Made by a program: the position numbers and the translations under genes
Notes under the pieces: generated by a model
Told to the model about the DNA's origin: nothing
Databases searched by the model: none
The model's input: only the letters and a program-made list of their open reading frames with translations
Shown: positions 2,028 through 36,139 of the stretch, one piece after another
Position numbering within the stretch: position 1 is the first letter of the stretch
Layout of the letters: the number at the start of each line of letters is the position of its first letter
Assembly: GCF_016907915.1 (NCBI RefSeq)
Contig: NZ_JAFBCW010000020.1
Span: forward strand, 1-46,018
Length of the DNA stretch: 46,018 nt
Reading direction: 5' to 3'
Source: Desulforadius tongensis
Lineage (GTDB): Bacteria; Bacillota; Desulfotomaculia; Desulfotomaculales; Desulfohalotomaculaceae

Positions 2028-2056
2028 AACCAGCTTGTAGTATAAGCTGGTTTTTA
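2028..2056 (+). terminator. rho-independent terminator
   Basis: Stem AACCAGCTT / AAGCTGGTT followed by five T, ending the PEP-utilising gene. Confidence 0.85.
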
Positions 2057-2086: not shown

Positions 2087-2148
2087 TGTCTTACACGCGA
2101 CAATTACAATGTCTTAATAAAGACAAATCCCCTGTCGCTGTCAAGACA
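2087..2148. promoter_or_regulatory. array of three TGTC-N8-GACA palindromes
   Basis: Three 16-bp sites fit TGTC-N8-GACA exactly: TGTCTTACACGCGACA (2087-2102), TGTCTTAATAAAGACA (2110-2125) and TGTCGCTGTCAAGACA (2133-2148). Each pair is separated by 7 bases, a strict 23-bp period. The array lies between the terminator of the preceding gene and the TSUP transporter, so it most likely controls the transporter. The geometry suits cooperative binding of a dimeric regulator. TGT-N10-ACA resembles NifA-type upstream activator sites, but I found no convincing sigma-54 promoter (GG-N10-GC) downstream. Confidence 0.65.
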
Positions 2149-2305
2149 TATCGCCAAATAATAGTGTGATAAACTAATTAATGAACGATGGGTTTTAATT
2201 ATCTTAATAGTGAAAAATTATACTATCCTACATAATGTATACATTTTTCTGGTAAAAATTAAATTTCTCCAGGTGAAAACAACAGGAAGTGAAAGGTGGT
2301 GTGGT

Positions 2306-2353
2306 GTGTTTTTTAGTGCTGAGATTATATTAGCGGCTGAAAAGGAGGTGTAA
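2306..2353 (+). CDS. possible 15-residue leader peptide
   Basis: A short GTG-initiated reading frame (15 codons plus stop) sits in the 400-base leader of the TSUP transporter, with AAAGGTGG upstream. Its last codons contain a second strong AAGGAGGTG sequence with no start codon behind it. It may be a leader peptide or chance. The rest of 2149-2478 is AT-rich, with no other gene visible. Confidence 0.2.
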   Translation: MFFSAEIILAAEKEV

Positions 2354-2478
2354 GAATTTTTTTTATCGGTTAATTTGCAATAAATATAACTTGCACAATC
2401 GAGCTTTTATTTTAAATATAAGGCAATTATTATAAGTGATAAAGAGCTGTGGTACAAAATCAAGAGGAGGGACTTACT

Positions 2479-3471
2479 GTGGAGTTTGCTTATGGTTTAG
2501 ATGCCAACCCATTTGGCATTCTGTTTTGGGGTATCATTGTTGGTTATGTTTTTTCTACCGTAGGTGCTGCGGGGGCCGTTCTTACCTTTATTGGTCAAAC
2601 TGTGTTATTTAAATTTGACAAGGCCATGATTAAACATTTAATAACTACAGGTATGGCAGAATCTGAAGCTAAAGCAGCCGCTAAAAATACCTTAAAGGTT
2701 CATAACCTGATGGCTGTAATTTTTTCACCGCTCATTGCAGTACCCCGGTACTTTAAAGAGAAAAGGGTGGCCATTCCCCTGGCGCTGTGTGTTGCAGTAG
2801 GTGTTGTTGCCGGTGCTGTAATTGGTCCCATGATTCCAATGTCAATGAAAGCATATAAGTTTTGGTTCGGTGTAGTAACCTTCCTGATCGGTATCAGGTT
2901 ATTCTATGAAACAACAGATTATGCCCGCAATAAAAAACAAAAGTTAAAAAACATCTCCAAAAAATTTGAAGAAAAAGTTAAAGAACTTAAGAAATCCGGT
3001 AACTGGGATGAGTTAGCAGCAGAGGGTTTCAAAGTTAACAACTTCAGTATTTCCGGTTTAAAATTTACCTTCTGGGGCGAAGAATTCTCCATTAATCCTA
3101 TGGCGGCAGCACTGGGTGGTTTCTTCATTGCCATTATCGCTTCTATGTTTGGTTTAGGCGGCGGGTTCCTGCTGGTACCATACCTGTCCTCAATATTTGT
3201 ACTGCCAATGTTCGTTGTAAGCGGAACCTCAATAACCATTGTACTTGTTAACTCAGTAATTGCCATTATCAGCTATCTGGCAAAGGGTGCTCAACCCGAT
3301 CTGATGTTCATGGGAGTTATGCTGGTGGGTATTGCCATTGGTTCTTTCGTGGGCCCGGTTACTCAAAAATATTATAAAGAAAAATATCTCAGGATGTTCC
3401 TGGCTGCAATATTATTCTTCTACGGTCTGCGTTTTATGGGTGTATGGGCTGCACTGGGTATTCCCATCTAA
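2479..3471 (+). CDS. TSUP-family (TauE/SafE) anion exporter
   Basis: A polytopic membrane protein of 330 aa with the two-fold repeat of the TSUP family. Each half carries a glycine-rich helix start (GYVFSTVGAAGA near the N terminus and FGLGGGFLLVPYL in the second half). A charged, Lys-rich cytoplasmic loop of about 60 residues separates the halves. Family members export sulfite, sulfoacetate or related anions; the substrate cannot be read here. I chose the GTG at 2479 because GAGGAGGG lies eight bases upstream; a GTG at 2449 has no ribosome site. Expression is probably controlled by the operator array at 2087-2148. Confidence 0.85.
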   Translation: MEFAYGLDANPFGILFWGIIVGYVFSTVGAAGAVLTFIGQTVLFKFDKAMIKHLITTGMAESEAKAAAKNTLKVHNLMAVIFSPLIAVPRYFKEKRVAIPLALCVAVGVVAGAVIGPMIPMSMKAYKFWFGVVTFLIGIRLFYETTDYARNKKQKLKNISKKFEEKVKELKKSGNWDELAAEGFKVNNFSISGLKFTFWGEEFSINPMAAALGGFFIAIIASMFGLGGGFLLVPYLSSIFVLPMFVVSGTSITIVLVNSVIAIISYLAKGAQPDLMFMGVMLVGIAIGSFVGPVTQKYYKEKYLRMFLAAILFFYGLRFMGVWAALGIPI

Positions 3472-34066: not shown

Positions 34067-34747
34067 TTACACCAGTGCCCGCAGCTTTTTTTGGTCTTTA
34101 ATTACTATTTGCCGGCGGTTTACTTCTAAAATACCCTTTTTCTTTAATTCACTTATTATCCTGTTGGCGGCTTCCCTGGAGGTTCCCACCATACTGGCCA
34201 GTTCTTGATTTGTCAGCGTCAGTTTTAATATAATGTCTTCTTCCCTCTGCACCCCGTGTTCTGCTGCTATTTCCAGCAGTGCCAGTATTATTCTCCTGCG
34301 CACGTCGTTTAGTGCTAAATTCCGCACCTTTTCCTGGGCAGAGCGCAGACGCTTGGACATAATGTGCAGCATGGACAGGGCAATCCCGGGATTGGCGATA
34401 ATTAATTTTTCCATGTCGCTGTTTTTTACCGCGCCGATAACCGAGTCCTGCTGCACTTCTGCGCTGGCGGGGTAACTGCTGCTGCCAAACAATACCACCT
34501 CGGCAAAGACTTCCCCGGGGTGAACGAAATGCAGTATGTGTTCCCGCCCGTCGGCACTGCGTTTGGTCAGTTTTACCAGGCCCTGTTTTAATATAAACAG
34601 TGCTGTGCCCGGGTCGTCTTCTAAAAAAACAAAACTGCCCTTTTTGTAACTGCGGTCGTGCACCAATTTGGCTATTTTGGCAAGCTGTTCACCGGTGAGC
34701 TCGGAAAACAGCGCGCATTTTTTAAAATATTTCACGTTGTCGTTCAT
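34067..34747 (-). CDS. Crp/Fnr-family transcription regulator
   Basis: 226 aa. The cNMP-binding beta-barrel (about residues 10-125) has FLEDDPGTALFILKQGLVKL, and a C-terminal winged helix (about 145-226) has LTNQELASMVGTSREAANRIISELKKKG as its recognition region. There is no N-terminal FNR-type cysteine cluster, so it should respond to a ligand other than via an Fe-S cluster. It is convergent with the hdr cluster. ATG at 34747; an in-frame GTG at 34759 is less likely. A palindrome just upstream may be its own operator. Confidence 0.88.
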   Translation of the reverse strand: MNDNVKYFKKCALFSELTGEQLAKIAKLVHDRSYKKGSFVFLEDDPGTALFILKQGLVKLTKRSADGREHILHFVHPGEVFAEVVLFGSSSYPASAEVQQDSVIGAVKNSDMEKLIIANPGIALSMLHIMSKRLRSAQEKVRNLALNDVRRRIILALLEIAAEHGVQREEDIILKLTLTNQELASMVGTSREAANRIISELKKKGILEVNRRQIVIKDQKKLRALV

Positions 34748-34763
34748 TGCTGCACCCACTGTT

Positions 34764-35428: not shown

Positions 35429-36139
35429 CTGAAAAAACAGCCCCCTATTTGGGAATGTGCAGGGTGTCCGGTGCGCAGGTTAACTATAGTATGTGATTTA
35501 AAAGGGGAAGATTTGCTGGAATTTCAAAGGAATGTACAAAAGCACAGGGTAAAATCCGGTCAGCTTATTTACTCCGAGGGAGAAAAATGTGCCGGGTTGT
35601 ATATCATCATGCACGGCCGGGTGAAATTATATTACGAAAGTATCGACGGTAAAGAACAAATTGTTGATATTATTGGTCCCGGTGCGGTGTTTGGGGATGT
35701 GTCATTAACCGCCAACAGCAGGTATGATGTCAGTGCAGAAGCATATGAAGACGGGGTGTACTGCAGTATTCCGCTGGACTATTACCAGCAGCTGGTACAA
35801 AGCAAACCCCAGGTGGCCATTCGCCTGCTGACGGTGCTTGAGTCCCAGCTGACTAAATCAAGAAAAATGATCAGGGATTTATCATTAAAGAGGGCCCGGC
35901 AGAGAATGGCTTCCATTATTGTCAGGCTGGCCAATGAAGAGGGCAGGGATGCACCCGGTGGGATGGAAATTAAGCTGCCGGTTACCGTTCAAACCCTGGC
36001 TTACATGAGCGGTTTAACCCAGGAAACGGCATCCAGGGTACTCAGTGAATTTCGCAAAACGGGAGTAATAGCTTTAAAGAACCGCAGGTTAAAAATACTG
36101 CAGTACGAGAAATTGAAAGAGAATGCCGAAATGGGTTGA
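35429..36139 (+). CDS. FNR-like regulator with N-terminal cysteine cluster, probable CTG start
   Basis: 236 aa if translation starts at CTG 35429, which has GGGAGGG seven bases upstream and follows a TAG stop. This start adds 14 residues and gives the N terminus WECAGCPVRRLTIVC, three cysteines as in Fe-S or oxygen-sensing FNR/Crp relatives. The GTG at 35471 has only a weak site and loses two of the three. The rest is a cNMP-type barrel (GRVKLYYESIDGKEQIVDII) and winged helix (TVQTLAYMSGLTQETASRVLS). It is divergent from the ferredoxin gene, with an FNR palindrome between them. Confidence 0.75.
   Translation: MKKQPPIWECAGCPVRRLTIVCDLKGEDLLEFQRNVQKHRVKSGQLIYSEGEKCAGLYIIMHGRVKLYYESIDGKEQIVDIIGPGAVFGDVSLTANSRYDVSAEAYEDGVYCSIPLDYYQQLVQSKPQVAIRLLTVLESQLTKSRKMIRDLSLKRARQRMASIIVRLANEEGRDAPGGMEIKLPVTVQTLAYMSGLTQETASRVLSEFRKTGVIALKNRRLKILQYEKLKENAEMG

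Follow-up and report, generated by a model that had tools for sequence, protein, structure and literature searches.

CooA, the CO sensor of R. rubrum, Desulfovibrio, Carboxydothermus and Calderihabitans, has the CRP/FNR fold and a consensus operator of TGTC-N8-GACA (PMC7306483), which has also been given as TGTCGGCNNGCCGACA (PMC545781). HcpR of Desulfovibrio, another CRP/FNR regulator, has a thiosulfate-reductase-like gene among its predicted targets (PMC545781); its operator is TTGTGA-N6-TCACAA, whereas the sites described here are TGTC-N8-GACA. Class II CRP/FNR-dependent promoters combine an operator at -41.5 with an extended -10 sequence and a weak -35 element. The system presented here combines a regulator of the CRP/FNR family with an operator of CooA type and a promoter of class II, none of which is a new kind of element. 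It differs from other class II promoters in that extra dimers are predicted to sit every 22/23 bp directly upstream, a rule that is conserved across the class.

The window, that is, the whole stretch of DNA that was analysed, consists of 46,018 nt from Desulforadius tongensis. It contains three operators, each of which fits the CooA operator TGTC-N8-GACA exactly:

2087-2102, no strand assigned: operator 1, TGTCTTACACGCGACA, exact match, centred at -87.5 relative to the predicted start at 2182
2110-2125, no strand assigned: operator 2, TGTCTTAATAAAGACA, exact match, centred at -64.5
2133-2148, no strand assigned: operator 3, TGTCGCTGTCAAGACA, exact match, promoter-proximal, centred at -41.5 (class II position)

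A preliminary description of this DNA had reported three exact sites with a 23-bp period and 7-base spacers, and exact matching confirms this. The spacers, which it called identical, are identical in length (7 bases each) but not in sequence, and the term "perfect palindromes" slightly overstates a symmetry that is present only in the outer four bases of each half. Its view that the sites are very unlikely to have arisen by chance holds, since 0.26 exact sites would be expected in the window and 0 of 100 window shuffles reach three. Nor is the sequence commonplace: there are 11 exact sites in the 2.58-Mb genome, 3 of them within the window array, versus 35 occurrences of a reversed control pattern. 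The window array is the only one in the genome with at least two exact sites.

The array is also kept in close relatives, where its core letters have diverged. TSUP orthologues in and beyond the genus (87% to 79% identity) are preceded by two or three exact sites that repeat every 22/23 bp, or every 45 bp where the middle copy is degraded; at the genus level, operator 2 is the best conserved of the three. Because TGTC, GACA, and their spacing stay constant while the core letters vary between copies and species, the sites appear to be selected operators rather than a recent repeat. Across the window's class, 33 of 113 genomes contain two exact sites separated by a linker of 6 or 7 bases (1 genome for the reversed control). 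When linkers of 1 to 31 bases are scanned, the matches listed have almost solely linkers of 6/7 or 28-30 bases (exceptions among them, 2/20 and 1/26), the latter representing three-site arrays whose middle site is degraded. At the loci examined, successive exact sites are 22 bp (n=13), 23 bp (n=43), or 44-46 bp (n=18) apart, with no other spacing below 60 bp, although the 22/23-bp counts partly reflect how the loci were selected. In a phylum-wide sample, an exact pair is present in 5 of 15 class members versus 2 of 383 others, and the array is thus nearly confined to the window's class within the phylum.

A generic σ70 scan of the region yields no plus-strand promoter because the predicted promoter lacks a -35 element; it was revealed instead by a comparative offset test. 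Each array has two flanks with the promoter on one of them, so that 48 distinct arrays provide 96 oriented flanks. TAnnnT lies 21 nt past the last GACA in 35 oriented flanks, versus 1-10 at other offsets. The longer sequence, TGnTAnnnT, is found at this offset in 28 of the 96 flanks, versus 0-4 elsewhere and a background of 0.23%, and in 4 further flanks at offset 22. With one promoter flank per array, an extended -10 is therefore present in about 60% of the 48 arrays; 9 of the 48 lack a recognisable -10 at 21/22 nt. About 57 predicted promoters have been found across the class. In the window, the promoter and its surroundings are as follows:

2028-2052, plus strand: intrinsic terminator that ends the preceding gene and insulates the promoter of the array
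2167-2175, plus strand: extended -10, TGA-TAAACT, from the TGnTAnnnT offset test, with a predicted start near 2182
2170-2175, plus strand: -10 hexamer TAAACT, conserved in relatives L025, L026, L027, and L028
2182-2478, plus strand: predicted leader (~297 nt) of the TSUP transcript, with no known RNA family and an unremarkable fold
2479-3471, plus strand: the target, a TSUP (TauE/SafE family) transporter gene (PF01925, E 4e-27)

The distance from operator 3 to the -10 is a constant 21 nt across the class, and this fixed position of the extended -10 places the centre of operator 3 at -41.5. As predicted from these positions, the arrangement has class II CRP/FNR geometry. The sites upstream of the TSUP gene are very probably genuine operators of that gene.

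The distance between the sites and the gene had seemed too great for a simple repressor, suggesting either an enhancer-type activator or a long leader. Only the leader survives. The promoter adjoins the array, its -10 lying 21 nt past the last site, and there is no σ54 element; the predicted start near 2182 precedes a leader of about 300 nt, which removes the puzzle. A leader of this length is common to genus mates, while that of L026 is about 50 nt. No riboswitch or any other Rfam family matches its sequence, which folds no better than shuffled versions (z -0.5). Two blocks within it are kept in the genus, 2209-2227 (AGTGAAAAATTATACTATC) and 2374-2400 (TTTGCAATAAATATAACTTGCACAATC, two TTGCA words close together), and these perhaps constitute a second promoter. 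Homologues put the start of the TSUP gene at GTG 2479, where orthologues begin at a matching ATG; the ORF itself opens at GTG 2449. Positions 1118-2023 of the window encode an isolated PtsI-like barrel of 301 aa (PEP-utilisers C-terminal), unaccompanied by the other PTS or PPDK domains, and a gene for this barrel adjoins the TSUP locus in several relatives.

Although no regulator had been evident from the window, a candidate can be named. A CRP/FNR gene lies immediately upstream of the array in L025, L026, and L029, and beside it in further genomes; the window and L027 have no local CRP/FNR gene between the PEP-utilising-domain gene and the array. This candidate, CRP_A, is encoded in the window's genome on contig C15 (G000:C15:12224-12886), unlinked to the array, and is 72% identical to the L029 protein. 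Here and in relatives, CRP_A consists of a cNMP-binding-like sensor (PF00027) and a Crp-type helix-turn-helix (PF13545). CRP_A accompanies the array across genomes and is lost along with it. CRP_A is present in 62 of the 113 class genomes and in 32 of the 33 that have the array (Fisher P 7e-10, not corrected for kinship); the sole array genome without it is 80% complete. Within genus g17, both are found in 3 genomes and neither in 4, which also lack aprA. Family f16 has neither, yet three of its members have aprA above the cut-off. Since the exact 22/23-bp array is absent from 30 of the 62 CRP_A genomes, CRP_A must act through single or degenerate sites as well. Nearly all CRP_A orthologues have the recognition helix [ST]RQTVT[ST] (RQTVTS), and the paralogues CRP_B and CRP_C, with the same helix, could share the array sites with CRP_A. 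The two other CRP/FNR genes found in the window's genome, at 34067-34759 (minus strand) and 35471-36139 (plus strand) of the window, flank a ferredoxin-like gene, and the helices of their products are SREAANRI and TQETASRV.

Among the genes behind the 57 predicted promoters, TSUP transporters are the largest group. Other targets are DUF169/COG2043 proteins, PhsA-like (thiosulfate-reductase-like) molybdoenzymes, dCache_3 chemoreceptors, and CRP_A itself, with a rhodanese-domain protein and an AprA-like flavoprotein as further members; unlike in the HcpR regulon, hcp and canonical apr/sat are not seen. In the window's own genome, these target classes reappear, each with a smaller number of sites: 3 of the 8 exact sites outside the array have an extended -10 at exactly 21 nt (chance of three such coincidences among eight, about 6e-6), and these single sites lie in front of the genes for two chemoreceptors and a pyridine-nucleotide oxidoreductase. 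The DUF169 gene of this genome has an exact site, a degenerate site 23 bp on, and then an extended -10 at 21 nt. The network looks like a regulon for sulfur-oxyanion uptake, respiration, and taxis, suggesting that the signal for CRP_A may be related to sulfur compounds.

In sulfate reducers, TSUP proteins are candidate transporters of sulfate or other sulfur compounds, with substrates not established (PMC5840216). Desulfovibrio has a TSUP permease and a DUF169 protein encoded by neighbouring genes (Dde_0597/0598), and mutants in both are fitter on nitrate (PMC4001038), an independent hint that TSUP and DUF169 proteins may act together. A PEP-utilising enzyme is encoded near this cluster, as it is here, with a different domain make-up. 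At aprA loci, here and in six relatives, no site with an extended -10 was found, and since the canonical aprA loci examined have no array, sulfate respiration proper is linked to the network only indirectly. Control of APS reductase is not claimed; the AprA-like gene behind the L029 array falls under the aprA family cut-off. Such AprA-like flavoproteins below the cut-off are regularly encoded near a gene for a CRP_A-related regulator, as in these examples:

G062:C11:37983-42188
G028:C1:1532899-1537067
G021:C60:57869-60882

Together, the computational findings (the sites and how they are conserved and phased, the fixed distance to the -10, the targets in common, and the linkage and co-occurrence of CRP_A) argue strongly for a tandem operator of CRP_A, a homodimeric activator of the CRP/FNR family, and we consider this explanation as a whole very likely. 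Binding, activation, and cooperativity of CRP_A are inferred. A CRP_A dimer at -41.5 would recruit RNA polymerase, in the class II manner, to a promoter that has an extended -10 but no good -35 element. Two more dimers, 23 and 46 bp upstream and on almost the same face of the DNA, would probably add cooperative binding and contacts to the α subunit of polymerase. The same control would operate at several promoters of the class, those for TSUP transporters, DUF169/COG2043 proteins, PhsA-like enzymes, Cache-domain chemoreceptors, and CRP_A.

The footprint of one CRP dimer is about 22/23 bp. An array period of this size means that neighbouring dimers would touch. A further TGTC half-site is present 7 nt past the last operator, one array period on and within the promoter spacer, at 15 of the 57 promoters (chance about 1e-23 if the promoters were independent, which they are incompletely). 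Loci with this half-site are:

L056, L059, L061, L065, L066, L078, L089, L102, L116-L119, and L124

Tentatively, and with less confidence than in the tandem operator itself, one might picture CRP_A dimers binding cooperatively as a string of 2-4, packed as closely as they can be at one every 22/23 bp and optionally extended by a half-site within the promoter spacer; the response to a sulfur-related signal would then be switch-like or self-limiting. If true, such a string would represent a promoter logic as yet undescribed in the CRP family.

The extra half-site could also mediate shut-off, and CRP/FNR proteins are capable of both modes; the regulator might then be a repressor or a dual regulator, with the tandem array serving cooperative silencing. 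This is unlikely, because operators are mostly centred at -41.5, a position typical of activation, and a good -35 element is missing from the promoters.

More doubtful still is the idea that CooA itself, the haem CO sensor, acts at these operators and that the TSUP gene is part of a CO response. In its favour, the operator consensus is identical (PMC7306483, PMC545781) and the recognition helix nearly so (TRQTV/SRQT in CooA); the best solved matches of the CRP_A helix-turn-helix segment are 2hkx, 2fmy, and 1ft9, the CooA proteins of Carboxydothermus and Rhodospirillum. However, of the three CRP/FNR proteins found in the window's genome, CRP_A alone has a CooA-type helix, and over its full length CRP_A is nearer to GlxR/Mtb-CRP (E 1e-30) than to CooA (E 1e-14). 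The haem-His segment (CRP_A residues 85-104, placed by numbering against CooA rather than by direct alignment) contains no conserved His, and 38 of the 43 orthologue rows lack one there altogether; invariant in it are E86, R99, and C101 (Desulfoscipio numbering). A CooA-type helix without a conserved haem His is consistent with CooA-like DNA reading by CRP_A and a sensor that would not be CooA-like. The targets seen are also non-CO genes, encoding TSUP, DUF169, PhsA-like, and chemoreceptor proteins, and the operators stand in phased arrays of two to four. At the loci examined, no array was seen ahead of coo genes (CO dehydrogenase). A CooA-type operator thus need not imply CO sensing, which is relevant to motif-based annotation.

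A σ54 activator acting from enhancer-type sites is extremely improbable and is in effect rejected: the outer letters of the sites do fit the NifA-like TGT-N10-ACA, but no GG-N10-GC (-24/-12) element is present in window positions 2149-2478, L025, or L027, the conserved element is instead an extended -10 at a fixed distance, and CRP/FNR genes adjoin the sites in relatives. Chance palindromes or a mobile repeat, for which one might cite the single exact sites elsewhere in the genome, are ruled out by the shuffles and by the conservation in a nearly class-confined array of spacing and TGTC/GACA amid differing core letters.

The array belongs to a control network of Gram-positive sulfate reducers that had no name before; the network is probably governed by an activator of the CRP/FNR family, whose dimers would lie next to one another immediately upstream of the promoter. 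The arrangement had been taken for an undescribed one; this is not so for the operator, which is of CooA type (PMC7306483, PMC545781), but it does apply, as far as the searched literature shows, to the class-wide array of tandem sites every 22/23 bp and to the regulon. A search of the open-licence literature that covered the operator sequence, CRP sites in tandem (class II/III), and regulators of Desulfotomaculum found no description of this regulon; undescribed there are the class-wide phased array, the putative pairing of CooA-type reading with a non-CooA sensor, and the target set. The control of sulfur-compound transport and respiration in Gram-positive sulfate reducers is poorly understood. 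In the network described here, DUF169 proteins, a thiosulfate-reductase-like enzyme, and chemoreceptors are joined by TSUP transporters, most of whose substrates in sulfate reducers have yet to be established. With a named candidate regulator, an operator grammar, and about 57 predicted promoters, the regulon is directly testable, and the phased array offers a good natural system for studies of cooperative CRP-family binding.

Four family f5 genomes have, in the array region, a gene for a CRP_A paralogue of 145-170 aa that consists of the sensor domain only and has no helix-turn-helix; tblastn found no helix-turn-helix remnant at these loci:

L065, 1707-2219: sensor-only CRP_A paralogue
L066, 844-1296: sensor-only CRP_A paralogue
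L060, 1606-2043: sensor-only CRP_A paralogue
L061, 907-1374: sensor-only CRP_A paralogue

These short proteins are possibly dimerisation decoys or co-sensors.
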